Notes: a model not told the origin generated them from the sequence alone. Positions 3,349 through 26,412 are shown, counted from the stretch's first letter. The stretch: 64,000 nt of DNA from Candidatus Nitrospira neomarina (GCF_032051675.1 NZ_CP116968.1:2170001-2234000), one strand, 5' to 3'. Translations and numbers: made by a program.

Positions 3349-5313
3349 TTAACCTCGCAAAATTGATTTTACAGCATCACTTTCTGGATCAGCTTGATAG
3401 CCATTTCCATCAATGAAAATTCTGAGCCAGAGTTCAAGGTTTATTAATGTCAACAAGTGGTCTGTATGATCTTGTTGCCGATTGCGGTGGCTCGCGATGG
3501 TGGCCTTTACCTGGTCCCACCGGAAAAGGCCCCTTTTCCTTACCTGGGATTCTGAAAGAGTCTCATTCATGATGACCTCTAGATCTTTTCGTAACCAGGC
3601 TCCCAATGGTGCACCAAACCCACGTTTGGGGCGCTTCAAAATCCCTTCCGGCAACCAGGGGGACACAGCTTTTTTCAACAATCGTTTGGTTGTAAACCCA
3701 TGAATTTTGAGATGTGAAGGAATCCTGTTGGCGAGTTCTACCAATTTATGATCAATAAATGGGGCCCGGCATTCTATTGAGGCAGCCATGGTCATCTTAT
3801 CAGTAAGAGCCAACAAATCATCAGGCAGCGAAGTTTTTAAATCCACATAAATCACTTGCCCTAAATCGTCACAAGTCATGGCTTGATCAAAATACCTTTC
3901 CATGGCTTTGCTATATGGAATATTTCCCAAGGGCTGTACAGAATGATCGTGAACGGGGAGACATTCCAAAATTTCTGGCGAAAAAACTCCAACATAAGAC
4001 ATATACCGAAGGGATGGTGTCAATTCACCAGTTTTAAGAAACCCATTAACATAGCGAGCCATATTGGATAAATAAGAATGTCGGTCCTTGGGCAATCTAT
4101 CAAATACAGCAGGCAGCCATCGATTCCGTATGGCTTTGGGAAGCATTTTATAGTATTGGATAAACTCGCCTCCCAAATATCTCCTATACCCCCCGAATAA
4201 TTCGTCCCCTCCCACTCCTGACAAAATCACTTTTACCGATTTCCTTGCAAGCTCAGACACCAAATAGGTCGTAATAAATGCTGAATCGGCTATGGGTTCT
4301 TCCAAATACCAGAGCAGCTTGGGCAATAAGCTCGCCACATCAGGGGTCACCATAATTTCATGGTGGTCCGTCCCCATGGCATCAGCGACAATCCTGGCGT
4401 AGGGCAATTCATTATAATACTGGTCTTCTCCTCCAAAACCGATGGCAAAAGTTTTAACAGGCTGATCGGTTGAACGGGCCATGGCGGCCACAATTGCACT
4501 CGAATCAATCCCTCCACTCAGAAATGCTCCCAAGGGAACATCACTCACCAACTGAGTTTTGACCGAATCCATGAATGCGTTACGAACCTGCTCTATCCAC
4601 TCTTCTTCCGAATAGTCTTCAGAAGGCTGGATTTGAACATCCCAATACTTTTCTTCATGGATCTTCCCATTCTGAATCATGAGAAAGTGCCCAGGAAGGA
4701 TTTTTTCTATGCCTTCTAACAGAGTCCATGGAGCCGGGACATATCCCAGAGCTAGGTACTCTTGGAGAGCTTGAAAATTCAAGCGACGAGGCACACTTCC
4801 ATCTTGGAGAATAGATTTTAATTCTGAACTGAACAAGACTCGATGAGGCTCCTTCCTTATATAGAGAGGCTTTTCGCCAAGCCGATCCCTCCCAAGGATA
4901 AACCGTGATCGAGGCCCATCCCAGATTGCCACAGCAAACATGCCGCGGAGTTGACCAAATACCTCCAATCCGATTTCTTCATAAAGATGAACGATGACTT
5001 CCGTATCACTAAATGTACGGAAACGATGGCCCTGCTCCTCTAATGTGATCCTCAATTCTCTGAAATTGTAAATTTCACCATTACAGACAACCCAGATCGA
5101 TTCATCTTCATTTGGGATGGGTTGGTGACCGCCCTCGATGTCAAGGATACTGAGCCGACGCATTCCAAACCCCATGGCTTCCCCAAGGAAGAATCCTTCA
5201 TCATCCGGCCCTCGATGCACCATAATTTGTCCCATTTTTTTTAGAAGTTCCCCGCGAGCAGATTTAGAAATACTTTTCTGATCAACATCAACCACACCAA
5301 AAATTCCACACAT
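3349..5313 (-). CDS. Asparagine synthase-type amidotransferase, XrtA-associated
   Basis: This 654-aa protein has the two-domain plan of glutamine-dependent asparagine synthetases. The class II glutaminase domain starts MCGIFGVV with the nucleophilic Cys2 and carries RRLSILD, NGEIYNF and SDTEV signatures. The C-terminal synthase domain carries the PP-loop LSGGIDSSA near residue 266 and GVGGDELFGGYRRY. It is longer than E. coli AsnB (554 aa) and matches the XrtA/PEP-CTERM amidotransferase type (TIGR03108-like). Family members use glutamine and ATP to convert a carboxylate to an amide. In this cluster the substrate is more plausibly a sugar uronate than free aspartate (inference). It is the last gene of the minus-strand EPS block, separated from the methyltransferases by an IS relic. 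Confidence 0.9.
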   Translation of the reverse strand: MCGIFGVVDVDQKSISKSARGELLKKMGQIMVHRGPDDEGFFLGEAMGFGMRRLSILDIEGGHQPIPNEDESIWVVCNGEIYNFRELRITLEEQGHRFRTFSDTEVIVHLYEEIGLEVFGQLRGMFAVAIWDGPRSRFILGRDRLGEKPLYIRKEPHRVLFSSELKSILQDGSVPRRLNFQALQEYLALGYVPAPWTLLEGIEKILPGHFLMIQNGKIHEEKYWDVQIQPSEDYSEEEWIEQVRNAFMDSVKTQLVSDVPLGAFLSGGIDSSAIVAAMARSTDQPVKTFAIGFGGEDQYYNELPYARIVADAMGTDHHEIMVTPDVASLLPKLLWYLEEPIADSAFITTYLVSELARKSVKVILSGVGGDELFGGYRRYLGGEFIQYYKMLPKAIRNRWLPAVFDRLPKDRHSYLSNMARYVNGFLKTGELTPSLRYMSYVGVFSPEILECLPVHDHSVQPLGNIPYSKAMERYFDQAMTCDDLGQVIYVDLKTSLPDDLLALTDKMTMAASIECRAPFIDHKLVELANRIPSHLKIHGFTTKRLLKKAVSPWLPEGILKRPKRGFGAPLGAWLRKDLEVIMNETLSESQVRKRGLFRWDQVKATIASHRNRQQDHTDHLLTLINLELWLRIFIDGNGYQADPESDAVKSILRG

Positions 5314-5560
5314 TAAACTGCTCCTTAGAATCTCAGAACAATGACCGGTGGCTATGTCGGATAGACCAACACCAGGCTGCCTGAAGTTAGGGGTTTTTGG
5401 TAAATACCTTATTCTCCGTCAGTATAGAAGAAATGGATTTACGCCAGTGGGTGCTATCATTTTGTTATTGATCGTCCCAAGGGTAGTTACTGCTAGGAGA
5501 CGGCGTACTTAGTCATCTCTTAATGAATGAACCAGAGCAGTGGTGCGTTGGATGAATTGC
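5314..5560. other. Spacer upstream of the amidotransferase
   Basis: No gene is supported here. It separates the amidotransferase start from the IS630-like relic, so the amidotransferase may depend on a local promoter. None could be identified with confidence. Confidence 0.3.
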
Positions 5561-6460
5561 AACACATTGTTCGCCGAATGTTTCATGTGAGCTTGTGACT
5601 CCCAAAAAGGTGTTTCTCAGGTCCATTTTGGCATGACTCCAGACACCGTTTCATCCGTTCAACTCTGAGGCATATCTGGAGAAATAGCCCAACGGGATGG
5701 CCCCATAGGCCTGTTCTACTAAATGTCGTGTTACATGGGAGACATGGTAGATGCTCGATCAGCAACCATAAAAATAGGCCGATTAATATCCCAATGAGAT
5801 TTCTTGAGGAAATCGACAAACATCGTCGAATGCATCAGGGCCTCAATCACTGCAAGACCCCAAGCGGACTCACCGCCGGGAGAAGCTTGATCCAAAATCG
5901 GTCCCCATGGTCTTTCACCACATAAATTTGCCAATGGACACCCAGGGTGGGGCCCAAAAAATGAGCCGCGCGGACGGCCTATTCGTCCACAAAATTGTTT
6001 TCGAGGCCCCGTCTTTGCGCGGGCCATTGGAGTTAGGGAAAATTTCGGCCAAATTGGCCAGCGGTTCTTCCGAACGCTGATTCTATGATCGGTAAAGGTT
6101 CTCTGAGGGTTGTGGCCCATTTGGTGGAGTGGGCGGGAACTCGAGTTCTTACTCAGGAGCATTTCACGATACCGTTTAACCACCTGACGGACCAGCCTCA
6201 AGGCCCCAGGATAAAAAGGGAACTGATACTGCTGCGGATTGCCTTTGGTGGTGTCCTCATCCATCCAGAACATTAGCTCGTGCGTCACCTTTCGCAGCCA
6301 TCCGCTTCGCATGCCCTCATACACCAAGGGTCAGCTGGGCCCCCGCCGGCACCCGCCCAACTATGCAAAAGCCGCCTGTGGGAGAATCTGGAATATTCGC
6401 GCAAGAAGGATCGGCGGCCTCCCACTCTTGCCCTCGACCACTTTTTTTAGACCATGAGAC
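5560..6460 (-). pseudogene. IS630-like transposase relic
   Basis: Three minus-strand frames together resemble an IS630-family DDE transposase. The upstream part has a GRPP-type linker, the middle has MGHNPQRTF (cf. LGLSPQRP), then FVDE followed by a stop near 5980, WIKLLPAVSPLGVL, and FVDFLKKSHWDINRPIFMVADR (cf. FIDFLKRL...RPVFLIVD). Stops and frameshifts break it repeatedly and no terminal repeats were found. It lies between two EPS genes and would interrupt an ancestral operon. The family call rests on remembered motifs only. Confidence 0.5.
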
Positions 6461-6594: not shown

Positions 6595-7368
6595 TTAATC
6601 ATTGCTTTCTTTTATGCTAAGGTAGAGAAATGCATGCGCCAAAACAACGGAGAGTCCGGGCACGAGTCCGATCAAGCGTATGGTTCTCTCGGATAAAAGT
6701 GGAGCCAGCCAAGGCACCCCCCTAGGGGGAAGATAAATTCCTGTCTTCTTAATTAGCCTCACCCCTCGAGCCAAAAGTAACGCGGTGATCATAGAAGAAG
6801 AGTGGGTATGCAAACGAGGCGACCTTCCTATAGCCCAATCATAGAGACGTTTCCCCAATGCCAATAGTTCAAGTGAATTAAGGGCTTCTACAATAAGAAA
6901 ACCATTGGGGCGTAAAACCCGTACCATTTCATCCAAGGCCCGCTCTGGACTTCCAAGTGCTTGAATGACACCTACAGAGGTCACCAGATCAAAACTTTCA
7001 TCTTTAAAAGGCAAATGATAGGCTTCACCACACAAATAGGGACTGTTTTTTTCTGAATCCGCGGTCAGTGCCCGGTGAAGAGTGGGGATTGAATAATCGA
7101 GACCAACTACCTTGTGCCCTCCATTCGCTAAATACCGCACATAAGTCCCTGCTCCACACCCCAGATCTAAGGCTCTCAACGGACAGAGAAGTGGCTGGGT
7201 CTGGAGGAGATCAGCAAATCTTTCGAATCGAGTCCAGAGTCCTTTTTCTGACCATCCTGAGACTAGATCATCCCTCTCATATGTACGCCCAAAGCGTTCA
7301 AATCGAGCCCGCCATTCTTCCTCAAAGGTTTTCATATTTGAAATGGCTTTCGTCGAGGCAACACACAC
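6595..7368 (-). CDS. SAM-dependent class I methyltransferase
   Basis: A 257-aa protein with a Rossmann-fold methyltransferase core. Motif I is LDLGCGAGTYVRYL near residue 66, followed by GLDYS and FDLVTSVGVIQALG. The acceptor is unknown. In an EPS cluster an O- or N-methylation of a sugar or lipid-linked intermediate is likely (inference). The listed start is a GTG seven bases behind the preceding gene's stop. An internal ATG at 7335 (MKTFEEEW) is a good alternative because residues 1-11 do not look conserved. The C-terminal 80 residues are rather hydrophobic (VVLAHAFLYLSI). It is the second of two adjacent methyltransferases. Confidence 0.8.
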   Translation of the reverse strand: MCVASTKAISNMKTFEEEWRARFERFGRTYERDDLVSGWSEKGLWTRFERFADLLQTQPLLCPLRALDLGCGAGTYVRYLANGGHKVVGLDYSIPTLHRALTADSEKNSPYLCGEAYHLPFKDESFDLVTSVGVIQALGSPERALDEMVRVLRPNGFLIVEALNSLELLALGKRLYDWAIGRSPRLHTHSSSMITALLLARGVRLIKKTGIYLPPRGVPWLAPLLSERTIRLIGLVPGLSVVLAHAFLYLSIKESND

Positions 7369-7375
7369 TAAAATC

Positions 7376-8086
7376 TTAAGCCTTGATTTTTTTTAACTCA
7401 ACAAGCAACCACCCTCTTAAAAAACCAAGACATTCATACTTACTAATGATTTTCTCATAAAGTGTTGCAATCATGAAAAGGACGGAACTAAACATAAAGC
7501 TCGCAGGGTATTGCCCTAGCCACTGAAATTCTACAATTTCAAACCCATGGCTTTTACATAATTTCTGTATGGATGAATACGTATTTGCTTTATAATAAGC
7601 AGGAAAAACATCTTCCATAGCTCTCCCTTCGGTTTTGGATACGATATATTTATGGAATTTATTTGGTATAAGAAGAGATAATATGGCTACATAATCACCA
7701 AGATTTGGAACTAAAAAAATGAAGCGACCGCTTGGCTTTAAGATTCTATTTATTTCCTCAAATACAGCATTAGGATCAATGACGTGTTCAAGTACTGCTC
7801 TAGAAATAACAACATCTATCGAATTATCCGGAACCTTTATGGATGAAATATCCCCTTTGCAGTATCTAATTCCTGGCAAAGGTTCGGTACTGTCTTCTAA
7901 ATCGACACCAATAAGAATTTTTGCTTTACCAACAAACTTTCTCAATATGGGAGCCGTGCGACCACATCCGGCGTCTAAAATCGTATCGTCAGAACGGAGA
8001 ACAGATACGATTTTATTTTCATATTTTCTATAAGGATGATCTTCGGAGTTAAAATATTTCTTTCGTAAATCGTCAGTTGTTAACAC
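7376..8086 (-). CDS. SAM-dependent class I methyltransferase
   Basis: A 236-aa Rossmann methyltransferase with LDAGCGRTAPIL (motif I, near residue 37), GVDLEDS and IDVVISRAVLEHV, the usual Methyltransf_11/25 layout. The start is a GTG at 8086 with AAAGGGG about nine bases upstream. A hydrophobic stretch near residues 195-215 (SFMFSSVLFMIATLYEK) suggests membrane association. The gene is clearly more AT-rich than its neighbours, suggesting separate acquisition. The substrate is unknown. Modification of the EPS or its lipid carrier is the contextual guess. Confidence 0.8.
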   Translation of the reverse strand: MLTTDDLRKKYFNSEDHPYRKYENKIVSVLRSDDTILDAGCGRTAPILRKFVGKAKILIGVDLEDSTEPLPGIRYCKGDISSIKVPDNSIDVVISRAVLEHVIDPNAVFEEINRILKPSGRFIFLVPNLGDYVAILSLLIPNKFHKYIVSKTEGRAMEDVFPAYYKANTYSSIQKLCKSHGFEIVEFQWLGQYPASFMFSSVLFMIATLYEKIISKYECLGFLRGWLLVELKKIKA

Positions 8087-8179: not shown

Positions 8180-9442
8180 CTATCTTGCCATTTGAAGCGT
8201 TTCTTGCGTCTTACGAACGGTCAGAGCCTTCAAAATTATCACAATTGCCACAAGATGATAGAATAGATCAAAATACGATCTGCTGAGGAACAATCCAGAT
8301 ACAACATACCCGACCAGACTTGCTTCCAACATCTGAGCATAATTCAATACCCATTGCTGTTCAGGATCATCTTTGGCTATCCGAATCATTTTTCTTACGC
8401 TTAATATCGAAGAGACAATTAACCCCGCAAAAAGAGCCAATCCAGTAAATCCATGTTCAGCCAAAACCTGAAAGAAAATACTATGGGCATCCACTCTATG
8501 GTTGGGAGCCTCAGGGAAATATCGAGCATACATTTCCGGGGTAAAAGCCCGAAATCCCGCACCAAGCAATGGTCGATCCAGGCCCACTCGGGTCGCCATT
8601 GTCCATGCATTGATTCTTTCCATTGAAGAACCATCTTCTTCATAAGTTTGGATAGTATCCATCCGGGAAAACCATTTTTCCGGCAAAGCTTCAAGAGCTA
8701 CAGGGATTGCTAACGCTAACAGAAAAAGCGTTAAAAATTTAGAGCGGCTTTTCAGAAAGATAACCGCGAGCACTGCCCCAAGCCCCAATAAAGCCCCTCG
8801 CGAATATGTAACTAATATGGCAACGATGGAAAAGACAAAGAAAGCCAAAAGTGTGCGACGCAACCAGACTCGAGTCTCATCGCGTCTTAGAAATAACAGA
8901 ATGGGCAAAATCATAACTAAGGCGAGCCCGATTTCGGTATTTCCTTCCATGAAACTTCCTTCGGGACCAAGAACACGATATTGTCCCCCCGTCATTACAG
9001 CCCAGATTCCCCCTTTGAAACCATAGTACCCAATTGACAGGGCCATAACGTACAATAACCAGCGAATCTTCTCACGATCCTGAATGACCAGAATGGTTAC
9101 AAAGGTCATAAGCAAAACCTTTGATACTTTTCCCAGTGCATTCCACGCATCTTCTTGGTATTCGGCAAACATCGTAGAACAGAAAAAAACGAGCCATAAG
9201 AGAATGAGCAAAACAAATTCCCTGTTCCAGGGAATGCGATAGCGCTCCTTGGAGAAAAACAACCCACCCAGGGTGGCGACAGCCACCATTTGCGCAAATG
9301 GAAAGATACTTGCTATCCCCCAGGTCAACCGATGAGGGTTCATGTAGCCAAGCCACGACCACATTAATACACCAACCCATGGCTTTAAAAAACAGAAAGG
9401 GAGAGACCCTATGACAATCAGTATGACTAGTGCATCACGCAT
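8180..9442 (-). CDS. O-antigen ligase/polymerase-like membrane protein, XrtA-associated
   Basis: This is a multi-pass inner-membrane protein of about 420 aa, largely made of hydrophobic helices (roughly ten or more). The N-terminal region (FLKPWVGVLMWSWLGYMNPHRLTWG) and VTYSRGALLGLGAVLAV are characteristic of the exosortase-A-associated putative O-glycosylation ligase (TIGR03097-like, Wzy_C/O-ligase fold). A large loop holds the conserved GAGFRAF and HSIFFQVLAEHGF. The family is thought to transfer or polymerise lipid-linked glycans at the periplasmic face. I place the start at the ATG at 9442 (MRDALV), since the upstream TTG at 9499 adds a cysteine-bearing tail not expected in the family. 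Confidence 0.85.
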   Translation of the reverse strand: MRDALVILIVIGSLPFCFLKPWVGVLMWSWLGYMNPHRLTWGIASIFPFAQMVAVATLGGLFFSKERYRIPWNREFVLLILLWLVFFCSTMFAEYQEDAWNALGKVSKVLLMTFVTILVIQDREKIRWLLYVMALSIGYYGFKGGIWAVMTGGQYRVLGPEGSFMEGNTEIGLALVMILPILLFLRRDETRVWLRRTLLAFFVFSIVAILVTYSRGALLGLGAVLAVIFLKSRSKFLTLFLLALAIPVALEALPEKWFSRMDTIQTYEEDGSSMERINAWTMATRVGLDRPLLGAGFRAFTPEMYARYFPEAPNHRVDAHSIFFQVLAEHGFTGLALFAGLIVSSILSVRKMIRIAKDDPEQQWVLNYAQMLEASLVGYVVSGLFLSRSYFDLFYHLVAIVIILKALTVRKTQETLQMAR

Positions 9443-9499
9443 GGATTTACAAACTTGAAGACCACAGACAAACTTCCCTGCTTTTACAAACTGGGGCAA

Positions 9500-9824: not shown

Positions 9825-10925
9825 CTACGACCCCGATAAACGAAACTTGTTCCACCCTAACCTCAATGGCGCAATGTTGTGGTGGTCTGAAGACAGACCT
9901 AGGCGTCTGAGCTCAAACCGATCTGTGTGAACACAATTTGTCCCATGAATAGTTGTAACTCCACAGAGAAAACCTTCATCTCGAAGCACTTCTTTAATGG
10001 TTTCATTAAAATCCTTGCGATTTCCATTGGGATAGGCAAACAAATCGGCTGCGAGTCCTAGGTTTTTTTCGATTGCGGCTTTGGATATCTTGATTTCCTG
10101 TATCGCCTCCCCGATAGGTAAGCAGGTAAGTAGCGGATGGCTAACCGTATGGACACCAATAGAAATCTGTTGTTGAGCCATTTCTTTAATATGCCACCAC
10201 TCCAATTTTTCAAATCCAGGGCAACTCCAATCCTTTGCAAACCCCAAATCAACTCGTAGCCTTGCAATAAGGCCCTTCCAATCACAAAACTCGAAGCCAC
10301 GAAGAAATTGTCTAAATACCCACAAAGCCTGCCGTCGTTCTTGAAGGGTCTTGAGAGAATAGGTCGTATCGCCAATAGCAACAGTTGGAGCTTCAGTACG
10401 TCGAAAAGCATCAAAAACCAAATCATGCCAAAGAGGTTCTTGTTCAGATTCCAGGGGACCCGTTGACAAAAAAATAGTTGCAGGCACACCTAATGCTCTC
10501 AATATAGGATAGGCATGCTCGTAATTATCCCGATAACCATCATCAAAGGTAATTGCCAGTGCATTAGGTGGTAAATCAGATTGTTGAGCCCGAAGAAGGA
10601 CTTCTTTAAGGGGCAAGATCTGAAAGGATTTGGACAACGTTTCAAGTTGCCGCTTAAAGACGCTTGGGTGAATTCCGCCGATAAAAGGGTCCGGGGAATC
10701 ATTCACTCGATGCCCAACAAGGATGAGAAAATGAAAATCCTTTCGCTTTCGGATATAGGGAAAAATGACTTTTTCATCTCCACAATCCAGTCGTTTCACT
10801 TCGCAATAATCGGCGATAAACAACAAAAAAGATAATAACCCAAACTTTTCCAGACACTGAAAAGTCCACAACAATACAAGATGTTTAAATTCCCTACCCA
10901 TAGACTTATTTTTGTTGGAGGCCAA
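9825..10925 (-). CDS. Polysaccharide deacetylase (NodB fold)
   Basis: A 366-aa protein with a NodB homology domain. It has TFDDGYRDNYEHA near residue 128, which supplies the catalytic Asp and a metal Asp, and GVHTVSHPLLT, the metal-binding His pair, near residue 245. LFAYPNGNR comes later. Family members remove N-acetyl groups from amino sugars. An EPS-linked, XrtA-type deacetylase of the envelope is the likely role. The N-terminal 40 residues are hydrophobic (VLLWTFQCLEKFGLLSFLLFIADY) and may anchor the protein. Its start overlaps the end of the FemAB-like gene by 20 bases, indicating translational coupling. Alternative internal starts exist (M9). Confidence 0.85.
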   Translation of the reverse strand: MASNKNKSMGREFKHLVLLWTFQCLEKFGLLSFLLFIADYCEVKRLDCGDEKVIFPYIRKRKDFHFLILVGHRVNDSPDPFIGGIHPSVFKRQLETLSKSFQILPLKEVLLRAQQSDLPPNALAITFDDGYRDNYEHAYPILRALGVPATIFLSTGPLESEQEPLWHDLVFDAFRRTEAPTVAIGDTTYSLKTLQERRQALWVFRQFLRGFEFCDWKGLIARLRVDLGFAKDWSCPGFEKLEWWHIKEMAQQQISIGVHTVSHPLLTCLPIGEAIQEIKISKAAIEKNLGLAADLFAYPNGNRKDFNETIKEVLRDEGFLCGVTTIHGTNCVHTDRFELRRLGLSSDHHNIAPLRLGWNKFRLSGS

Positions 10926-12033
10926 GAGGCGCTTTCCACCAATCCCTGATTCGCTTACACATCGGCACTATCCTACCTTCCAATTCCCACGTCAGCCTTC
11001 CGGTCAGGGTACGGTTGAATACATCAATTCTGACATTAGTTCGAAAGTCATCCGCCCAATGAAGCTTATAGGCATTAAGACCTGGCCCGTAGTTGTATTC
11101 TTGATATCCGTTGACAAATAACCATTGTAGAATTTGGGCTTCTAAGTAGGCGCCTGGAGAACATTCTTTATAGGCTTCGTCAAAATCGGACCTAAGGGCA
11201 AAGACCTTTCCTTTACTTTCCAGGTCATATTCCATCGCAATAGGTACTCCATTCGTTTTCAGAAGCCAGACCATCAGCCAACCTCGGGAATCTCCCACCA
11301 TAGTCAGGATTGAAAAAAAGCGTCTTAGATCCTCCGTATTTGCCAGCGATTTTCCTTCTTGGTATTTCCACCCCTGCCGAGAAACCTGAAGGACCTCTTG
11401 CATTACGGAACCATTGAAATTTTGCCGAAAGCACTGAACTTCAACCTTCGGAAGCTTCGAAACGCGATTGGCAATATTTCGCTGAGTTTTCCGAAGCCGG
11501 GGACCATGACCTTGAAGGAATGAATCCCACTGCCCTTGAATAGCGAGAAATGGAGTTACCGAGGCTGTTTGCAAAAGATGTTTATTTCCCCCCTCCACAA
11601 AGCGGTTTAACACCTCTTTAAAATTCGGCGACTGGTTTGGCCACTGCGTTAGCATCAACACATCCCAGCAATGCCCCAATGTTCCATCAAAATATTCAAG
11701 AATTGCTGAAAGGACTTGTCGCTGATTTTCTTTTTCCACAATAAAGTCAACAAGTGGGGTATCCTGATTGGTGATAAATTCCATTTGTTTGACAGGAATC
11801 CCTCGAACATATCTCTCAGTACGCCATAGGGGGGCAATTCCAAGAAGTTTCGGACCATCACGAACTGTGAGAATATATAATGGTGGAGGATTCTCATATT
11901 GCTCCAACAAACACTGAAACCATTCATGAGTCAAAAAAGGGGAATACTGCTCACTCCTTTCAAGTAAATGTTCCCACTCATCATGTAAAGTCAGAAAATC
12001 GCATTTGGTGGAAATTGGTTCAACTTGTATCAC
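10906..12033 (-). CDS. GNAT/FemAB-like acyltransferase (CelD/BcsL type)
   Basis: A 375-aa protein with the two-lobed FemAB/CelD GNAT architecture. The first lobe holds FLTHEWFQCLLEQY and LGIAPLWR. The second holds the Acetyltransf_6-like region with AMEYDLESKGKVFALRSDFDEAY and SPGAYLEAQILQWLF, followed by EYNYGPGLNAYKLHWADD. Such proteins accompany XrtA EPS loci and are presumed to add acyl or aminoacyl groups to glycan or lipid acceptors. The acceptor here is unknown. It starts 12 bases behind the Asn-synthase-like gene and overlaps the deacetylase downstream, so the three genes read as one operon. Confidence 0.8.
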   Translation of the reverse strand: MIQVEPISTKCDFLTLHDEWEHLLERSEQYSPFLTHEWFQCLLEQYENPPPLYILTVRDGPKLLGIAPLWRTERYVRGIPVKQMEFITNQDTPLVDFIVEKENQRQVLSAILEYFDGTLGHCWDVLMLTQWPNQSPNFKEVLNRFVEGGNKHLLQTASVTPFLAIQGQWDSFLQGHGPRLRKTQRNIANRVSKLPKVEVQCFRQNFNGSVMQEVLQVSRQGWKYQEGKSLANTEDLRRFFSILTMVGDSRGWLMVWLLKTNGVPIAMEYDLESKGKVFALRSDFDEAYKECSPGAYLEAQILQWLFVNGYQEYNYGPGLNAYKLHWADDFRTNVRIDVFNRTLTGRLTWELEGRIVPMCKRIRDWWKAPLGLQQK

Positions 12034-12045: not shown

Positions 12046-13923
12046 TCAGTTCCAGTATCGACGATGCCATAATTCCAACATCATCAGATTCCAAAGGATG
12101 GTTCCGTAAAATGAGGTGGAATCAGTTTGATGGTCTTTAACTATCTTCTCTAACATCTTTTTTTTGAAATACCCCCGCTGCACACTTCTTGGACTTAGCA
12201 CTAAATCCCGCATCATCTCATTGAGACCTTGGTGAGTGCGAAGCCAAATATGAATGGGCAGGCCAAATCCGTGTTTGGATTTATTCCGAATCTCTTGGGG
12301 GAGCACATCAGAATAGGCATCCTTAAAAAATGTTCGTAGTGTTAGTCCCCGCATCTTCAAGGCAGCAGGCACCGAGGCGGCAAATTCCACAAAATTATGA
12401 TCCATAAAGGGAAAACGTACAGTGACCCCGGCAGCCTCTGTCGTCTTCATGACTTTAATAAGGTCATTGTCGGTCATCACAAGCTTTAAGTCGACATACA
12501 GTTGCCGATCGAGTTCGGTATTAGCCTGAGCTTGGGCATAATGTTCATGCACTGCACAATAGGGATTGAAATCAAATCCAATCGCTTCCAGGATTGAATC
12601 GTCAAAAAGCTCAGGCAAAGGAATAATTTCATAAAGTCCATGTGCGCAAAGACGGGAGGGATAAGGGACCTTGGCACGCTGAATATATCGTTTACTTTTG
12701 CCAAGTATAGGCACGGGCAGCAAGGGCTCAAGACCAAAGATCGAAGGTTCTATGAAGAATCGCCTCAGCCATACCGGCATACGAAAATAGTAATCAAAAA
12801 GTTTCTGCGTTGCATAACGCTTGTTTCCAGCAAACAACTCATCTCCCCCATCTCCGGCGTAAAGAAACTTAATTCCGTGATCTCGGGCAAGCTTAGCGCA
12901 AAAGTAGGCAGGTATGGCGGAAGAATTCCCATAGGGCTCATCGAAAGCCTCCGTAAGAATGGGAAGAGCAGACATCGTATCCTCCGCGGAAACATAATAT
13001 TCATGATGACCGGAACCAAAAGCCTTAGCTGCAATTCTGGCATATTCCATCTCGTTAAAACTCTGTTCTAGAAATCCAATAGAAAAACTGTCGATCTGAC
13101 GTTGTAAAAGTCTGGTAATCACTCCAGTTACAGTAGTGCTATCAATTCCTCCACTAAGAAATGTACCAATCTGAGAACGCAACCCATCGCAGGCAAGCCG
13201 AATTGATAGAGCCTCATCAAATTGGTCCCGTAGGGCATTCGTTAATTCTCTTCGAGGCATTCGGGAAGGGGCAGAAAATTGAACATCCCAATAGGTTTTT
13301 ACCGTTAGCTGTCCATGTTTCATCATGAGGTAAGAACCCGGAGGAATTTTTTTTATTTCCTTGAAAATGGTCTGGGGAGTGGGAATCGAATAGGACGCAG
13401 CCATAATGACAAGCGCACAAGGATTGATCGACCGCTTGATATCGAGAGGACAGGCGGACAATGCCTTTATTGATGAAGCAAAAACAAGTTTTTCCTGATC
13501 CAGATAATAAAAAAGCGGATGAACTCGAAAACGATCGGTCACAAGATACAGTATTTCTTGTAATCCATCCCACAGAGCTATGACGAATTCACCGCGAATA
13601 CGTTCGACAAAACCTATACCCTCTTTCTGATAAATCGTCAGCAAGGCTTTAATTTGGCTACAACGGTCGACATCATCACTAAAGAGTTCCTGTTGATTAA
13701 AGATGCAGCCGTGAAGAACTAACCCCATAGGTTGGCCATTCCGCTCCTCATGATGTGCCACAGAAATTCGCCCAGGAAAAGGAGCAGATCCTAAACCAAC
13801 ATTCCGACAGATGAAAGTTTGACCATTTTGGCGGGAAGCAAGGCCCTCCAACATCGGAGACAAATGCGGAGAGTCCACATTCCGTTGTCCATCATGAAAG
13901 ACCACCCCGCAAATCCCGCTCAT
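12046..13923 (-). CDS. Asparagine synthase-like protein with Ser in place of catalytic Cys
   Basis: A 625-aa homologue of glutamine-dependent asparagine synthetase. The N-terminus reads MSGICGVV, so the glutaminase nucleophile Cys2 is replaced by Ser, with another Cys at position 5. A glutaminase-fold domain follows (LVLHGCIFNQQEL, GIGFVERIRGEFVIALWD). The synthase domain keeps its PP-loop LSGGIDSTT near residue 257 and AGDGGDELFAGNKRY. It could use free ammonia or be supplied by a partner, or form a non-amide bond (inference). The start ATG overlaps the stop of the TPR gene by one base (TAATG), indicating coupling. Confidence 0.85.
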   Translation of the reverse strand: MSGICGVVFHDGQRNVDSPHLSPMLEGLASRQNGQTFICRNVGLGSAPFPGRISVAHHEERNGQPMGLVLHGCIFNQQELFSDDVDRCSQIKALLTIYQKEGIGFVERIRGEFVIALWDGLQEILYLVTDRFRVHPLFYYLDQEKLVFASSIKALSACPLDIKRSINPCALVIMAASYSIPTPQTIFKEIKKIPPGSYLMMKHGQLTVKTYWDVQFSAPSRMPRRELTNALRDQFDEALSIRLACDGLRSQIGTFLSGGIDSTTVTGVITRLLQRQIDSFSIGFLEQSFNEMEYARIAAKAFGSGHHEYYVSAEDTMSALPILTEAFDEPYGNSSAIPAYFCAKLARDHGIKFLYAGDGGDELFAGNKRYATQKLFDYYFRMPVWLRRFFIEPSIFGLEPLLPVPILGKSKRYIQRAKVPYPSRLCAHGLYEIIPLPELFDDSILEAIGFDFNPYCAVHEHYAQAQANTELDRQLYVDLKLVMTDNDLIKVMKTTEAAGVTVRFPFMDHNFVEFAASVPAALKMRGLTLRTFFKDAYSDVLPQEIRNKSKHGFGLPIHIWLRTHQGLNEMMRDLVLSPRSVQRGYFKKKMLEKIVKDHQTDSTSFYGTILWNLMMLELWHRRYWN

Positions 13924-14501
13924 TACTTTTCTCCCTGGTTCTTACGCAAATGGTTAGCTTTCGCGATGGCTTCCTTTGCACGTTTGGAGTCACCCTGAAG
14001 ATTGTAGGCCTCTCCTAGCCACTCATATGCCACCATCAATTGCTCATTCATTTGAATAGCCTCATGCAGGTGGTTGATGCCTTCTTCGATCCGTCCAACC
14101 TCGACCAGAAAATGCCCATATTGGCCATGCGTGATTGCATGCTGGGGAAATAAATGAAGAGCCTTCCTAAAATACTGATCCGCCAAATTAGGATCGTTTT
14201 TCATCTTGGCTATAGAAGCTATAAAAAGTAAGGCATTTGGATGGTTGGGCCAATAACGAAGGATAAACTCCAACTCCGCGATAGCCAACTGCAAGTTCCC
14301 TGAAGCAGATCCTTCTCGAAAGTGCTTATAGAATGTGCCCTTGCTCAGATGATATTGCTCATTGGTATTAAGCAGTTTTTGGTCTCGTAAAGGGTCAAAA
14401 TAGTCATTATTAAAGGTTTGGGCAGAGAGAGAAAAAACGCCTCCCCCCAACGTAAAATAGAGTAAAAGGATTCTAAAAATCAGAAACGGCGATGAGGTCA
14501 T
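13923..14501 (-). CDS. Small exported TPR protein
   Basis: A 192-aa protein with an N-terminal hydrophobic segment (FRILLLYFTLGGGVFSLSAQ) resembling a Sec signal peptide with a cut after SAQ. Three or four tetratricopeptide repeats follow. Helical pairs such as NPNLADQYFRKALHLFPQH and EEGINHLHEAIQMNEQL recur at about 34-residue spacing. TPR proteins in EPS loci act as periplasmic scaffolds (for example for export or polymerisation complexes). No partner can be named. It is translationally coupled to the Asn-synthase-like gene at 13923 and lies 111 bases from the next gene upstream. Confidence 0.75.
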   Translation of the reverse strand: MTSSPFLIFRILLLYFTLGGGVFSLSAQTFNNDYFDPLRDQKLLNTNEQYHLSKGTFYKHFREGSASGNLQLAIAELEFILRYWPNHPNALLFIASIAKMKNDPNLADQYFRKALHLFPQHAITHGQYGHFLVEVGRIEEGINHLHEAIQMNEQLMVAYEWLGEAYNLQGDSKRAKEAIAKANHLRKNQGEK

Positions 14502-17667: not shown

Positions 17668-17698
17668 GGGCAAAACCAATTAAGGAGAAAGATTGGAT

Positions 17699-18934
17699 CT
17701 AATGCATCTCATCATAAACCCGCAAACAAATCTCGGAAAACCTTTTGACCGCCTCGTTCCATCCACAACGTGTCTCAACGAACTCCCTAGCAGACCTGCC
17801 AATTTCGTTTCGTACAATGGGATCCTGTAAAAGACGGATAACGCACTTAGCAAATTCTTGCGGTTGGTCAGCCAAAAGGACATGCTTCCCGTGTTCTACG
17901 GGCAACCCCTCGGTCCCCACTCGAGTGGAAACAATGGCCTTTCCCATTGCCATCGCCTCATAGACTTTGATCCGTGTACCCCCACCTATTCGGAGGGGAA
18001 TGATGTAAACGCTTTTTTGACGAATATAGGGGCGAACATCTTCAACTCTTCCGACAATTCTTATCTCTGGATATTCCTCCACGGTTCGCCGCAGGTAGGC
18101 CGATGGGTTTCTCCCCACAACAGTTAGGGTGACATCAGGAATGGCAACCCTAATGCGGGGTAAAATGTTTCGCGCAAAAAAAACAATTGCGTCCTCATTA
18201 GGAAGCCAATCCATTGCCCCCACAAATACCAAACTGTTCCCTTGAGGGTTCTTTTCATCTGCAGAAAAGTAAATCAAATCGACCCCTGTTGGAATCGCAT
18301 GGACATTAGGCACTCCAAAATCCTTCTGTAAGATCAACTTATCTTGTTCCGACACAGCCACAACCGCATTAAATTGTTGACACATCTTCTTTTCAAACCG
18401 CTCCATTTTCTTCCATTGTGCCCACCAGAACATTTTCATGAAGGCATTTCTGGCGGTCTGAAAATGTCGTTTGACAATCATAGATTCGACATTATGTTGA
18501 AATAACAGAGTGGGAAATCCCATAACATTACGAAAATTTAAGGTCGGTTGCAGGAAATCACAGATCAAGAGATCAAACTCTCTATTTTGCACAAGTTCTG
18601 CAATCTTCCCCTCAATGGCTCTAGAGTAATCATTCTTCACAGAAATGGGATACCGAGAAAAATTCCACGCCAACACTCTTGCATAGAAGGAGAATGAGTA
18701 TTTGAACACCTCTTTCCATAAGACATACTGAAAATCATCACATAATTTTTTTACCTGACCTAAGTAAGGTTCATCTTTGGGACTTTCAAAATGGCACAAT
18801 AGGGTGATGTCAAAATGTTTCTTGAGTCCCTCTAGCATTTTTCCGGTCCGAATCTTTCCTCCTGTATCCATAGGAAGCGGGAATCGTTGAGAGAAGAACA
18901 GGACCCTTAGTCTTTTCGCACCATCTGTATTCAT
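17699..18934 (-). CDS. GT4 glycosyltransferase, XrtA-type paralogue
   Basis: A 411-aa GT-B enzyme related to the neighbouring gene. The N-terminal strand RVLFFSQRFPLPMDTGGKIRTGKML parallels the PNRGGKIRPFHM motif of that protein. The C-terminal half has VFVGAMDWLPNEDAIVFFARNILP, VVGRNPSAYL and LRIGGGTRIKVYEAMAMGKAIVSTRVG. The pair probably arose by duplication. Role: sequential addition of sugars to a lipid-linked repeat unit (inference). It is 18 bases downstream of the AlgD-like gene, and both probably share a transcript. Confidence 0.85.
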   Translation of the reverse strand: MNTDGAKRLRVLFFSQRFPLPMDTGGKIRTGKMLEGLKKHFDITLLCHFESPKDEPYLGQVKKLCDDFQYVLWKEVFKYSFSFYARVLAWNFSRYPISVKNDYSRAIEGKIAELVQNREFDLLICDFLQPTLNFRNVMGFPTLLFQHNVESMIVKRHFQTARNAFMKMFWWAQWKKMERFEKKMCQQFNAVVAVSEQDKLILQKDFGVPNVHAIPTGVDLIYFSADEKNPQGNSLVFVGAMDWLPNEDAIVFFARNILPRIRVAIPDVTLTVVGRNPSAYLRRTVEEYPEIRIVGRVEDVRPYIRQKSVYIIPLRIGGGTRIKVYEAMAMGKAIVSTRVGTEGLPVEHGKHVLLADQPQEFAKCVIRLLQDPIVRNEIGRSAREFVETRCGWNEAVKRFSEICLRVYDEMH

Positions 18935-18952: not shown

Positions 18953-20269
18953 TTACCAACAAATCCCTTCGTTCCCGGGATTCATTTCCTTCAGATCCGA
19001 ACTCACCCGTACAAGATCCAGTATCACTTTATCTTTCAGATACGGCTGGATGTCTGTAGAAAATTTCCCAAAAGATTTTGCAATGACCAGCACCTCGGAT
19101 TCTTGGATCACGTCACCAAGGTTGTCTGACACCAGCCCAGAAATATGGGGAATCTCCCTCTCAATATACTCTTTGTTCGCGCCAAATATTTTCGAGAGAA
19201 ACACCTCTGGATCATAAATTTTGACCTGATAACCTTTACCCAGCAAATTTTCGACAAGCGCCACTGTGGGAGATTCGCGCAAGTCATCCGTCCCTTCTTT
19301 AAAGCTCAACCCAAGAACTCCGACATTTTTCTTGCCCTTGCCGATGACGAGATTTACAGCTCGCTGAACATGCAACCGGTTGCTTTCCATCAAAGAGGAA
19401 AGTAGAGGGGAGACAAGATCCAACGCTTTACATTGATAAAGTATGGCCCTCAGGTCTTTGGGCAAGCATGATCCTCCAAATGCAAAGCCTGGCTTGAGGT
19501 AGGCCGGAGATATATTCAACTTTGTATCTTGGCAAACCAGCTTCATGATCTGATGGCTATCCATATCAAGCGCCTTGCAAAGAATACCAATCTCATTGGC
19601 AAAAGTGACTTTGAGCGCATGGAAGACATTGCACACGTACTTGACCATCTCGGCCACTTCGAATGTCGTGCGTTCCATTGGCGCATCAATCGCTTCGTTC
19701 AGACTCGCGACAATATCTCCTCCACGTGAGGTGGTTTCTCCAATAATGGTAAAAGGTGGATTATAAAAATCATGAATCGAGCTTCCTTCACGTAGGAATT
19801 CTGGGTTAAAACACACATCAAAATCTTTATGGGCCTTTTTCCCTGCACCCTCTTCTAAAAGGGGAATCAATGTTTGGCGAATAGTCCCGGGTAAGACCGT
19901 GCTTCGAAAAACGAAACAATGATATTCCCTTTTTTTCCTCAATGCACTTCCAAGCTCACGGCTGATAGTCTTGACAGTATGAAGATCTAATGATCCGTTG
20001 CTGCAAGAAGGAGTACCGACACAGACCAGACTGACATCCGACTCCATTACAGCTCTGGATAAGTCCGTTGTTGCCTGAAGGGTTCCCTTTTTACGACCCG
20101 AAAGGATCAAATCCTCAAGACCTTTTTCAACAATAGGACTTTTGCCCTCGTTGATCATAGAAACTTTCATTTCATTGATATCTACGCCGATGACCTGGTG
20201 TCCGTCCTGACTCAAACATGCTGCGGTCACACATCCAACATAGCCTAAGCCAAAAATACTGACCTTCAT
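18953..20269 (-). CDS. algD: GDP-mannose 6-dehydrogenase, AlgD-like
   Basis: A 438-aa nucleotide-sugar dehydrogenase. The N-terminal Rossmann motif is SIFGLGYVGCVTAACLS. VCVGTPS and RSTVLPGT follow, and the catalytic region GFAFGGSCLPKDLRA contains the nucleophilic Cys near residue 269. Conserved stretches such as GKSPIVE near the N-terminus, CNVFHALKVTFANEIG in the middle and the terminal GICW resemble Pseudomonas AlgD more than UDP-glucose dehydrogenases. The reaction would be GDP-mannose plus two NAD+ to GDP-mannuronate. This implies a uronic acid in the polymer. It heads the operon that continues to 9825 or beyond. The 380-base leader separates it from an inserted IS3. UDP-sugar specificity cannot be fully excluded. 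Confidence 0.85.
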   Translation of the reverse strand: MKVSIFGLGYVGCVTAACLSQDGHQVIGVDINEMKVSMINEGKSPIVEKGLEDLILSGRKKGTLQATTDLSRAVMESDVSLVCVGTPSCSNGSLDLHTVKTISRELGSALRKKREYHCFVFRSTVLPGTIRQTLIPLLEEGAGKKAHKDFDVCFNPEFLREGSSIHDFYNPPFTIIGETTSRGGDIVASLNEAIDAPMERTTFEVAEMVKYVCNVFHALKVTFANEIGILCKALDMDSHQIMKLVCQDTKLNISPAYLKPGFAFGGSCLPKDLRAILYQCKALDLVSPLLSSLMESNRLHVQRAVNLVIGKGKKNVGVLGLSFKEGTDDLRESPTVALVENLLGKGYQVKIYDPEVFLSKIFGANKEYIEREIPHISGLVSDNLGDVIQESEVLVIAKSFGKFSTDIQPYLKDKVILDLVRVSSDLKEMNPGNEGICW

Positions 20270-20741: not shown

Positions 20742-21032
20742 ATGGCACGACGATCACGAAGGAATCACTCCCCCGCTTTTAAGGCCACAGTCGCCTTGGC
20801 GGCCGTTCGAGGCGACCGAACGCTGGCAGGGTTGGTGAAACAATTTGATGTGCATCCCAATCAGATCCAGGGCTGGAAGAAACAGCTGCTGACCAAAGCC
20901 GAGCACGTATTTGGGGCAAGTACGGCGGATACCGCCACTCATGACCAGATTCAGCAGAAACTCCATGCCAAGATCGGGCAGCTGACGATGGAGAAGGATT
21001 TTTTAGCCAACGCGCTCGGGCACGGCCGATGA
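20742..21032 (+). CDS. IS3-family OrfA
   Basis: A 96-aa helix-turn-helix protein beginning MARRSRRNHSPAFKATVALAAV and ending in a coiled-coil segment (LHAKIGQLTMEKDFLANAL). It has the standard IS3 OrfA length and layout (HTH_Tnp_1 type). An AGGAGCAGAAG ribosome-binding region lies about five bases upstream of the ATG. The stop overlaps the OrfB start by four bases (ATGA), so OrfB is translated by coupling or via frameshift. It is intact, but its partner OrfB is broken. Confidence 0.8.
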   Translation: MARRSRRNHSPAFKATVALAAVRGDRTLAGLVKQFDVHPNQIQGWKKQLLTKAEHVFGASTADTATHDQIQQKLHAKIGQLTMEKDFLANALGHGR

Positions 21033-21873
21033 GCGAGCGCAAAGCGATGATCAAGGTCAAACAAGAGCTCTCTGTGATTGGTCAGCGTGGGTTGTTCGCC
21101 GTCCCTCGCTCAAGTGCGTATGCTCGCTCACAGGTTGTCTCGGAGTCCGAGATCGAATTGATGAGACAGCTCCACGCGCTCTATCTCCAATGGCCGCTCT
21201 ACGGGAGTCGGCGGCTGTGCGTTGAGCTTCGGCATCGAGGGTATGGAGTGAACCGGAAGCGGGTCCAGCGTCTGATGCGGAAAATAGGGCTCCGGGCTAT
21301 CTATCCAAAGCCCCGCACTTGTCAGCCTGGCAAGGGGCATAAGGTGTATCCCTACCTGCTGAGAGGCCTGAATATTGAACGCTCGAATCAGGTCTGGGCG
21401 AGTGACATCTGTTATATCCCCATGGCCAAAGGGTTTCTGTATCTAACGGTCATTATGGACTGGCACTCACTCGAATGCTGGCTTGGCGGGGCTCAAAGAC
21501 CCTGGAGACCGAGGCATGCGTGGAAGCGCTGGAAGAAGCACTCGGCTATTATGGAGCACCAGAAATTTTCAATTCCGACCAGGGGCCACCATACACCAGC
21601 GAGGGGTTCATGGCGGTGCTCAAAGCTCAGAGAGTGCAGATCAGTATGGATGGGAAAGGTCGGTGGGTCGACAATATCTTTGTGGAACGTCTCTGGCGGG
21701 GCGTGAAGTACGAGGATGTGTATCTCCGAGCCTATGACACTCCAACCACGCTGCGGGCTGGCCTGACAAGCTGTTTTCAATTCTATAACCGCGCACGCCG
21801 TCATCAGACATTGAACCGACAAATACCCAATGCCGTATATTTTGCTGATCTCCAAACAAAGCAGGTGGCGTAA
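21029..21873 (+). pseudogene. IS3-family OrfB with a frameshift
   Basis: The DDE transposase reads well to IMDWHS near 21470, after which the frame changes and MLAWRGSKTLETEACVEALEEAL continues to the natural end at 21873. The catalytic residues lie in ASDICYIPM (D), NSDQGPPYTSEGF (D) and FVERLWRGVKYED (E). A single small indel separates them, so a full-length enzyme is not made unless a frameshift corrects it. Confidence 0.8.
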
Positions 21874-22111: not shown

Positions 22112-23293
22112 TTACCCAACTGCACTCTTAAACACCTCATACTCCTGCCCCGCAACCTGTTCCCATGTACGACGATGGACATGCTGACTTATGAGATCAG
22201 CATCCCAGACCTTATTGAGTGCTTCAATAATGGCCTTTGCCATAGCTTCAGGAGAACGATCCGTGAGAATGCCCACGTCTGGTGAATTTACAAGATCGGG
22301 TATTCCTCCAACACGCGTAGCCACAACCGGAGTCCCGCATGCTAAGGATTCGAGAATGACATTAGGGCATCCCTCCCGGCTAGATGCCAAACAAAATAGA
22401 TCTGCCGACCGGTACCACTTAGGTAAAAAATAATGTGGAACCGGCCCCATGACGCGTACGTTATGCGTCAGATTCAGGTCTATCACAAGGCTCTCCAGGG
22501 ATAGGCATTCCTTTCCCTCCCCGATGAGTACGAGAATGGGAAGTGAATCTAGACCTTCACTATCTCTCAAAAATGCCAACGCTTTCACAAGAAGATCCAT
22601 CCCTTTATTTGGTGTATAATTGCCTACCGAGAGCACCAGCTTTTGATTTCCCTCAAAACTAATCGATTTTCGTGCCTCAGCCTTGGAGGACGGATAGAAT
22701 GTTTCAGAGTCAACACCATTAGGAATCACCCTAATTTTATTTTGAGAGATTCCGAGTTGACCAATCTTCTCAGCTAAGGGATTCGATACAGAGATCACAG
22801 AAGAGGCACGAGACAGAGTTAGCCGCAGGAGAGAACGAATGATTGGAAGATCCGCGCAAACATTCACATCACTTCCTCGGGCCGTAACTACAACAGGACA
22901 CCCCAAATATTGTCCGATCAACATCCCGGCGAACCCATCCGGATAAACAAAATGTGCATCTACGATATCAGGAGGAAATTCACGACATATGCGTTTCACT
23001 AGGGGCAAGGAACATAGGGCCATCAGGAAACCATGTATGGCCATGCCTATTTTGGGAGCCATGATATAGCGGGGATGGTACACTTTTATTCCGTCTACAA
23101 ATTCTCTTTTCTGAACACGGCGGTATGACATTCGCCATCCAAACCCAATTGGCGGATAGTACGGGACTGGGGAAACAATTTGAACGTGGACACCAGGTAA
23201 GGCGGCAATCCGAGTTAGTCGTTCCTTGACAAAAATACCGTGATTTGGACAAACATTGTTAGGATACAGGGAGGTAAAACCAAGAATATTCAC
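22112..23293 (-). CDS. GT4 glycosyltransferase
   Basis: A 393-aa GT-B glycosyltransferase. The N-terminal acceptor domain begins MNILGFTSLYPNNVCPNHGIFVKERL. The interdomain region has VTARGSDVN and VSNPLAEK, and VIPNGVDSETFYPS opens the donor domain. SVGNYTPNKGMDLLVKAL and SREGCPNVILESLACGTPVVATRVGG complete the nucleotide-sugar site, with the E-x7-E motif in the last of these. It probably extends a lipid-linked EPS repeat at the cytoplasmic face (inference). It lies 20 bases from the upstream amidotransferase gene and was separated from the algD-like gene by an IS3 insertion. Confidence 0.85.
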   Translation of the reverse strand: MNILGFTSLYPNNVCPNHGIFVKERLTRIAALPGVHVQIVSPVPYYPPIGFGWRMSYRRVQKREFVDGIKVYHPRYIMAPKIGMAIHGFLMALCSLPLVKRICREFPPDIVDAHFVYPDGFAGMLIGQYLGCPVVVTARGSDVNVCADLPIIRSLLRLTLSRASSVISVSNPLAEKIGQLGISQNKIRVIPNGVDSETFYPSSKAEARKSISFEGNQKLVLSVGNYTPNKGMDLLVKALAFLRDSEGLDSLPILVLIGEGKECLSLESLVIDLNLTHNVRVMGPVPHYFLPKWYRSADLFCLASSREGCPNVILESLACGTPVVATRVGGIPDLVNSPDVGILTDRSPEAMAKAIIEALNKVWDADLISQHVHRRTWEQVAGQEYEVFKSAVG

Positions 23294-23313
23294 CGTCTAA
23301 TTAGAATCCATGT

Positions 23314-25194: not shown

Positions 25195-25212
25195 AGATCG
25201 CAATCCCGAATG

Positions 25213-26412
25213 TTACAATGAGACCCTTTTCACTTTAGTCTTGGTTGCAAGCAATTTCGTATACAATTGATCGTAATCACTGACCATTCGGTCAAGATTA
25301 AATTCTCTTTCCACAACATCACGACCCGCCAGGCCATGCTTCAATAGCAGAGCTGGATCCCCCACATAGGTAGCCAATGCATTTCGAAGGGCATTCACAT
25401 CCCCAGTTGGAATCAAAAACCCGGTGACACCATCAATCACCAGTTCAGGATTTCCACCCACTCGAGTGGCGATTACCGGAAGGCCTGAAGCCATAGCTTC
25501 CAAAATGGTATTCGAGAGTCCTTCGCGAAGCGATGGGAGGACAAACACATCCATGCGGCTTAACCATGTGGGTATATCAGATTGCTGCCCTGCAAAATGA
25601 ACGTGGGTGTTCAACTGAAGCTTTTCAACCAAGGCTTCGAGGTTGTGTTGACACGGGCCGTATCCAACAAGCAAAAGATGAACGGACTGGCCACCGTGAA
25701 CGAGATCGGCAAAGGCCCTGATCAACAATTCTTGATCCTTGACAGGATCAAAGCGTCCAACCGTCCCGATGGTTATTACGGCATCTTGTTGATGTCGCTC
25801 TGCCCCTCTTTTCCATAAAGAAAACCTCTTCACATCTACTCCATTGGGAATTGCCACGACTTTGCCTTCAGGGATCCCGACTGATTTCACCAACCACGAA
25901 CCGAGATCCTGAGAAACCGCCACGAATTGATCAACGAACCATCCAATTAGACGTCGGGTCCATCTTCGAATGATTCGACGGCCATCAGGATCGGTCATAT
26001 CACGCCCATGCTCTCCATGGACTACAATGGGCACACCGGCCATCTTTGCCGGCAAAATCGCATCAATCGTTCCCCAATTACGGGTATGAACGACATCGAC
26101 TGGATTGGCTTGAAACAACTGAAACAATTTCCCAGGGAGGTGCCAATCCAAACCAGGAGTCTTGTTAAGTTCAAAGACCTTCACATCCCTCCGCTGCACG
26201 TGTCCGATAAAATTCCCTGAGCGCTGAATACAACAAAGACTATGCCTGAAACGCTCACAATCCAATCGATTGATGAGATTCACAACCCCATTTTCTAATC
26301 CACCTTTATCGAATGAAGTTACCACATGCATAATATGAATCGGAGGAGGCGAAGGTATTTTCACCTGTGAATCCCTATCGTGAGGTAAGAGTTTCGCATC
26401 ACAATTCAGCAT
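25213..26412 (-). CDS. GT4 glycosyltransferase, XrtA-associated (TIGR03088-like)
   Basis: A 399-aa GT-B enzyme. The N-terminal motif HIMHVVTSFDKGGLENGVVNLINRL is typical of the PEP-CTERM/EpsH1-associated sugar transferase type 2. GEHGRDMTDPDG and AIPNGVDVKRF follow. The donor site has GTVGRFDPVKDQELLIRAF and SLREGLSNTILEAMASGLPVIATRVGG. A start closer to the conserved HIMHVV strand is possible (first 25 residues are variable). It appears to begin the GT4/amidotransferase/GT4 sub-operon, with about 250 non-coding bases on its upstream side. Confidence 0.85.
   Translation of the reverse strand: MLNCDAKLLPHDRDSQVKIPSPPPIHIMHVVTSFDKGGLENGVVNLINRLDCERFRHSLCCIQRSGNFIGHVQRRDVKVFELNKTPGLDWHLPGKLFQLFQANPVDVVHTRNWGTIDAILPAKMAGVPIVVHGEHGRDMTDPDGRRIIRRWTRRLIGWFVDQFVAVSQDLGSWLVKSVGIPEGKVVAIPNGVDVKRFSLWKRGAERHQQDAVITIGTVGRFDPVKDQELLIRAFADLVHGGQSVHLLLVGYGPCQHNLEALVEKLQLNTHVHFAGQQSDIPTWLSRMDVFVLPSLREGLSNTILEAMASGLPVIATRVGGNPELVIDGVTGFLIPTGDVNALRNALATYVGDPALLLKHGLAGRDVVEREFNLDRMVSDYDQLYTKLLATKTKVKRVSL

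Follow-up and report, generated by a model that had tools for sequence, protein, structure and literature searches.

Why does an exopolysaccharide (EPS) locus carry four homologues of asparagine synthase around a gene for an AlgD-like dehydrogenase, and what are they likely to do there? This question is raised by positions 3349-26412 of a 64,000-nucleotide stretch of the Candidatus Nitrospira neomarina genome (GCF_032051675.1 NZ_CP116968.1:2170001-2234000; the whole stretch is called the window below). The four homologues, labelled P1 to P4 in their order along the window, and the dehydrogenase gene are all encoded on the minus strand. An earlier interpretation made without database searches, referred to here as the sequence-only reading, suggested that the locus makes an amidated uronate polymer whose mannuronamide-type residues are formed by several amidotransferases differing in position or substrate. 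The part of this proposal that survived our analysis is that P1 and P4 look like uronate amidotransferases, but neither the uronate polymer nor the action of several amidotransferases on mannuronate was upheld. The gene content suggests a heteropolysaccharide that would contain an AlgD-derived uronic acid, with uronamides formed by P1 and/or P4 and a further amide step carried out by P2, a reading that we consider about evenly poised between right and wrong. At a more general level, the cluster probably serves to make a sugar acid from mannose and to convert sugar acids into their amides. Gene content, catalytic residues kept or lost, and gene neighborhoods are taken directly from the sequence, and the substrates, products, and chemistry discussed below are all deduced from them.

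P1 (3349-5313, 654 aa) and P4 (23314-25194, 626 aa, ATG at 25194) had been described as complete Cys2 amidotransferases with intact glutaminase and PP-loop motifs, and this description proved correct. Both proteins start MCGI and have GATase and Asn_synthase Pfam domains (Asn_synthase E values of 9e-98 and 1e-102, respectively). With residues numbered throughout as in E. coli AsnB, where the cysteine at position 2 of the reading frame becomes Cys1, all sites checked are intact in the two proteins: Cys1, Arg49, Asn74, Gly75, Glu76, Asp98, and the SGGIDS loop. The residues expected of a glutamine-hydrolysing class II amidotransferase are therefore present in P1 and P4, and they are not retained in P2 and P3. 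At residue 348, a Glu in AsnB, P1 has Val, and P4, P2, and the uronamide synthase WbpS have Asp, so that P1, P2, and P4 all lack the Glu348 expected of an asparagine synthetase. The equivalent residue of human ASNS, Glu364, has been modelled touching the aspartyl adenylate, and the E364A and E364Q variants are inactive with aspartate (PMC6748925).

Family placement was addressed with two quick maximum-likelihood trees, in which AsnB forms a long branch and the deep branches are weak, and with the TIGR03108 profile. None of P1, P2, and P4 grouped with E. coli AsnB in either tree. P4 was found with its own orthologues and the Vibrio XrtA amidotransferase, and P1 formed a clade of its own within a larger group in which residue 348 is non-acidic. 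The WbpS clade (10 rows, support 100) was separate, with P1, P2, and P4 outside it. Taken broadly, the side of the phylogeny on which P1 and P4 fall is that of the exosortase amidotransferases and WbpS, away from E. coli AsnB. The WbpS reference came from a plasmid with a wbpO/wbpP-like neighborhood; this P. aeruginosa plasmid (CP075839.1) carries, at 58021-71850, an O6-like O-antigen stretch with wbpO-, wbpP-, and WbpS-like genes and an internal insertion sequence. Against the curated TIGR03108 cut-off of 816.9 bits, P4 scored 806.1, P1 553.8, and P2 330.2, all below it, and the P4 orthologue of another genome (G008) scored 825.4, above it. Judged by these scores, P4 is a borderline member of TIGR03108, and P1 and P2 fall outside the family. 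The genes expected around a TIGR03108 enzyme, exosortase A and its partners, are present nearby. A hydrophobic residue 348 was considered as a marker of AlgD-linked enzymes and rejected, since the sister clade of P1, from mostly AlgD-negative genomes, shares the feature.

The presumed source of the uronic acid is encoded at 18953-20269, and its assignment as an AlgD-like GDP-mannose dehydrogenase was confirmed. The product aligns end to end with the P. aeruginosa GDP-mannose dehydrogenase 1mfz at 504 bits and 52.8% identity, compared with 232 bits for the best UDP-glucose dehydrogenase. It keeps the catalytic C268 as well as K210, N214, E157, E161, and K324, and differs from the P. aeruginosa enzyme at positions 256 and 259. 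Similarity well above that to UDP-glucose dehydrogenases together with Cys268 places it in the AlgD class, and we infer that its substrate is GDP-mannose. Among the identified proteins of the window and the exosortase region, no Alg8/Alg44 synthase or epimerase was recognised, the rest of the genome lying outside that search.

The association of AlgD with amidotransferases was assessed in 236 genomes of the same order, the 41 nearest of which served for an adjacency test. In these 41, an asparagine-synthase homologue lies within 5 kb of 5/6 AlgD-like genes versus 0/87 other nucleotide-sugar dehydrogenase genes (Fisher p = 1e-7, shared ancestry ignored). AlgD-like genes were detected in 29 of the 236 genomes, and of the 23 AlgD loci flanked by 15 kb or more of sequence, 12 had a same-strand homologue within 5 kb and 17 within 20 kb. 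The neighboring glycosyltransferase is also a recurrent feature: of 25 loci, 18 have one of the TIGR03087 type no more than 2 kb from AlgD, and in 14 the distance is at most 100 bp. The P1 clade is found in only 6/236 genomes, all six of them AlgD-positive (hypergeometric p = 2e-6, a value that again ignores shared ancestry), and within the genus the contrast for P1 is 3/3 versus 0/18, which partially controls for kinship. That P1 and P4 look like uronate amidotransferases and not asparagine synthetases is thus supported, because they stand apart from AsnB in the trees, Glu348 is replaced, and adjacency to AlgD is unusually frequent. The idea that P2 likewise tracks AlgD was weakened, as 8 of the 13 genomes with P2 are AlgD-positive and five lack AlgD. 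In one genome (G429; contigs C90, C121, and C10), two P1-clade and two AlgD-like genes were seen, which fits either a duplicated cassette or contamination (8%).

Comparison of individual loci suggests a modular arrangement. G427 has nearly the whole window locus, with AlgD, P2, P3, and P4 in the same order, but has no P1-clade gene. In G266 and G410, P1-like, P4, and P2 genes are grouped, and AlgD was not found. There thus seem to be two modules: an AlgD-glycosyltransferase cassette that may include P1, and a core composed of TuaC-like glycosyltransferase-P4-TIGR03088 and TPR-P2-deacetylase groups. The notion of several amidotransferases working on mannuronate is not supported: P2 and P3 have no glutaminase nucleophile, the P2/P4 module is also present where AlgD was not detected, and the P1 clade alone keeps to AlgD-bearing genomes.

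P2 (12046-13923) and P3 (14613-16448) were indeed divergent homologues, as had been noted, and the loss of their glutaminase site is an addition to the sequence-only reading. P2 starts MSGICG, with Cys1 replaced by Ser, Asn74 by His, Glu76 by Cys, and Asp98 by Gln, and keeps an SGGIDST loop. The gene was found in 13/236 genomes, Cys1 is lost in 13/13, and the position is occupied by Ser, Gly, or Ala in homologues with a clear start. The Ser of P2 was considered as a substitute nucleophile and rejected because of the Gly and Ala found there in homologues. The subfamily is otherwise well conserved: it forms a fully supported clade of 12 rows in the tree, the reading frame is open without internal stops in every genome where it was found, the PP-loop motif is invariant across several genera, and the neighboring genes for a TPR protein (13923-14501, with a signal-peptide-like N terminus) and a polysaccharide deacetylase (9825-10925) are fixed across genomes. 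The predicted P2 model (pLDDT 89.8) matched TsnB9 (7ylz), AsnB, and the beta-lactam and carbapenam synthetases over its full length. In beta-lactam and carbapenam synthetases, the glutaminase half does not supply ammonia. By sequence and model, P2 resembles the beta-lactam synthetases in having an AsnB fold, an inactivated glutaminase, and an intact PP-loop, a likeness that does not amount to membership. Because the Cys2 nucleophile is gone in all 13 homologues, P2 is, as far as its residues indicate, not a glutamine-fed amidase. With its adenylating half kept and the glutaminase lost, P2 most likely draws on a different amine, or on free ammonia, by analogy with these synthetases.

P3 has no Cys2, and its loop reads TGGYDS. 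It had no Pfam match and no PDB match, and its structure model was too poor to be used (pLDDT 46.5). The only close homologues seen came from G427 and G236, the latter with a TSGYDS loop. P3 is a more distant relative that is probably not a glutaminase.

A further feature absent from the sequence-only reading is the exosortase context. Markers of exosortase A systems inside the window are an O-antigen ligase/polymerase family protein (TIGR03097, Wzy_C; 8180-9499, 470 bits against a cut-off of 188), two TIGR03087 glycosyltransferases (16465-17679, 440 bits against 317, and 17699-18934, below the cut-off), a TIGR03088 glycosyltransferase (25213-26412, 412 bits against 409), and a VimA-like FemAB family protein (TIGR03019; 30368-31441, 408 bits against 260), all on the minus strand. 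About 8-24 kb beyond the window end (genome 2242547-2258415) are genes for the deacetylase TIGR03006, the initiating transferase TIGR03013, chain-length/kinase and export proteins, and XrtA itself (TIGR03109; 2256820-2258415, ~23 kb past the end). Only one PEP-CTERM protein was found with TIGR02595, and it adjoins XrtA. By its gene content, this region holds the glycosyltransferases and modifying enzymes of an exosortase A (XrtA/PEP-CTERM) EPS locus.

In the pathway that we favor, the AlgD-like enzyme would oxidise GDP-mannose, and the resulting GDP-mannuronate would be used by the neighboring TIGR03087-type glycosyltransferase (17699-18934), a candidate GDP-uronate user, to extend a lipid-linked repeat unit. 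Working separately, P1 and P4 would each draw ammonia from glutamine, and their PP-loop domains would adenylate a uronic acid carboxylate and then release the uronamide, as is thought for WbpS. Of the two, P1 would be more likely to act on the residue derived from AlgD, P4 being part of the core module that is also found without AlgD. P2 would most likely adenylate its substrate and then join it to another amine or free ammonia. A repeat unit with one or few uronic acids appears more likely than a uronate polymer, because the Wzx-like flippase, the Wzy_C ligase/polymerase, the TIGR03013 initiating transferase, and the many glycosyltransferases all point to a heteropolysaccharide.

Other explanations of the same genes must be weighed against this pathway. 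That P1 and P4 are conventional asparagine synthetases using glutamine, placed in an EPS locus by chance, is most improbable. Both exceed the cut-off of 267 bits for the asparagine synthase profile TIGR01536 (488 for P1 and 513 for P4), but so does P2, which has no catalytic cysteine. In addition, Glu348, essential in the form of human Glu364, is replaced in both, neither lies with E. coli AsnB in the tree, and their orthologues are found in polysaccharide loci. It is possible, if on the unlikely side, that the amidotransferases target a different EPS uronate or carboxylate, for example an N-acetylhexosaminuronic acid or a linking sugar like that of the P. gingivalis Wbp/Vim pathway, and that the mannuronate made by AlgD stays unamidated. 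The P4/P2 module occurs without AlgD in G266, G410, and G416, and partly in G415 and G016; TIGR03108 matches are present in 34/41 relatives and AlgD in 6/41; and the substrate of P. gingivalis WbpS is a diacetamido-uronic acid (PMC7468200), with deacetylase and VimA-like FemAB genes present here too. However, the tight linkage to AlgD and the occurrence of the P1 clade in AlgD-bearing genomes only suggest that at least one enzyme serves the AlgD product. Several further observations do weigh against amidation of that product by P1 and P4. TIGR03108 enzymes are also encountered without a nearby uronate dehydrogenase, in Vibrio pYa108 and in most relatives. Elsewhere, the AlgD-adjacent homologues span several clades, some of them with Glu348 (G278, G403, and a Mariprofundaceae contig), so the substrate cannot be read from adjacency alone. 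Moreover, the clade nearest to P1, likewise non-acidic at residue 348, belongs mostly to AlgD-less genomes, the nearest syntenic locus, that of G427, has no P1-clade gene, and P1 falls far and P4 slightly under the TIGR03108 cut-off.

The alternatives for P2 concern its chemistry and whether it is active at all. It might still make simple amides, from free ammonia or from ammonia supplied by a partner glutaminase such as P4, often its neighbor. Its synthetase half is intact, it lies near P4 in several genomes, and free ammonia can serve enzymes of this class, as in assays of human ASNS with ammonium chloride (PMC6748925). On the other side, the loss of Cys1, Asn74, Glu76, and Asp98, long-lasting and seen across 13 genomes, suggests that the enzyme needs something other than ammonia, and we regard this option as rather doubtful. 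Decay of P2 and P3 into pseudo-enzymes would account for the lost glutaminase residues and the varied PP-loop of the G236 homologue of P3, but it is very unlikely given the open P2 frames, fixed neighbors, and PP-loop motif invariant in several genera. A long shot is that P2, perhaps with P3, represents a distinct group of exosortase-locus amide ligases that would join a uronate carboxylate to a non-ammonia amine. The candidate amine would be an aminoacyl group from the set of genes at 54413-57526 (plus strand; an acyl carrier protein (ACP) recognised by eye, a TIGR03098 AMP ligase, and a BtrK-like PLP decarboxylase), moved by FemAB-type transferases, and the amine-bearing sugar would be a candidate exosortase A acceptor, comparable to the Wbp/Vim linking sugar (PMC7468200). 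This exosortase-A-associated set is also of note in itself: the best solved relative of the decarboxylase is the glutamyl-ACP decarboxylase BtrK, and the set may be an aminoacyl-carrier module of the exosortase system.

The remaining genes of the region, insertion sequences aside, are on the minus strand unless stated otherwise. Past AlgD in order of coordinates, a frameshifted pair of IS3-type transposase frames (21029-21873, plus strand) lies in the gap before the TuaC-like glycosyltransferase (22112-23293), the conserved partner of P4; the corresponding gap in G427 is only 370 bp. Between P1 and P2 are two SAM methyltransferases, MT1 (6595-7368; Methyltransf_11, E 3e-25), possibly for sugar methylation, and MT2 (7376-8086), identified by a profile match, a 71% identical copy of which is placed between the P1 and AlgD genes in G006, as well as a GNAT/FemAB-like acyltransferase (10906-12033; Acetyltransf_6, E 1e-16). 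Beyond P4 are the Wzx-like flippase (26662-28176), a PMT_2-type membrane glycosyltransferase (28173-30434), and the polyprenyl-phosphate glycosyltransferases GT2a (31468-32460) and GT2b (32529-33620). An MBOAT O-acyltransferase of the AlgI/DltB-like type (37017-38666) and an overlapping frame of no assigned family (35923-37128) could be involved in EPS O-acetylation. Insertion-sequence remnants and transposase frames, some frameshifted, split the EPS region at 930-2837, 21029-21873, 34486-34845, 39154-42023, 47504-54342, and 58747-59890, and the reading frames 930-1427 and 53845-54342 are near-identical copies in opposite orientation.

WbpS-like uronamide formation in exosortase-type loci is an idea that has already been proposed (PMC3684757, PMC7468200). 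WbpS is needed for uronamides in P. gingivalis (PGN_1234; PMC7468200) and H. pullorum (PMC6025236), and TIGR03108, FemAB, and deacetylase genes have been noted in exosortase loci, with an amino-acid-modified sugar suggested as the exosortase acceptor (PMC7468200). Two features are new here, the association of AlgD with a glycosyltransferase and amidotransferases and the P2 subfamily with its conserved loss of the glutaminase, neither of which was found in the limited open-access literature searched; a full-text search of the same literature returned no published case of a mannuronamide polysaccharide. These findings bear on the composition of exosortase-linked polysaccharides and on the attachment target of exosortase A, a compound that has been called unidentified (PMC7468200). 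The repeated association of GDP-mannose dehydrogenase, glycosyltransferase, and amidotransferase would predict a specific residue to look for, mannuronamide, and the P2 subfamily would predict a second amide chemistry.

Among known systems, AlgD shares with the dehydrogenase 53% identity over the full length and the catalytic residues; here, however, the gene belongs to a Wzx/Wzy-type locus with no alginate polymerase or epimerase gene recognised in the part examined. The beta-lactam and carbapenam synthetases have in common with P2 the AsnB fold, an intact adenylating domain, and a glutaminase half that is no source of ammonia, but P2 is in a polysaccharide locus, is only 14-16% identical in the structural alignment, and is not known to have an intramolecular amine substrate. 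WbpS, the P. aeruginosa O6 uronamide synthase (P. gingivalis PGN_1234), is likewise a class II amidotransferase, carries the glutaminase and PP-loop residues found in P1 and P4, and shares Asp348 with P4. Unlike the present locus with its GDP-mannose dehydrogenase, it accompanies UDP-HexNAc uronate genes, and P1 and P4 lie outside the plasmid-borne WbpS clade. The psc1 cluster of Rubrivivax gelatinosus combines EPS and PEP-CTERM genes with three WbpS-like asparagine synthases, femA, and a deacetylase, as here, and one of the three, likened to the uronamide-forming WbpS, affects aggregation (PMC3684757). In the part of that description drawn on here, capL is listed, no AlgD-like gene appears, and the state of the glutaminase is not discussed (PMC3684757). 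The XrtA/PEP-CTERM EPS locus (cf. Vibrio pYa108) shares the gene set found here: a TIGR03108-type amidotransferase flanked by glycosyltransferases, FemAB, a deacetylase, export genes, and XrtA. What sets the present locus apart is its AlgD-like dehydrogenase, accompanied by a neighboring glycosyltransferase of its own, and the presence of four asparagine-synthase homologues, two of them without a glutaminase.

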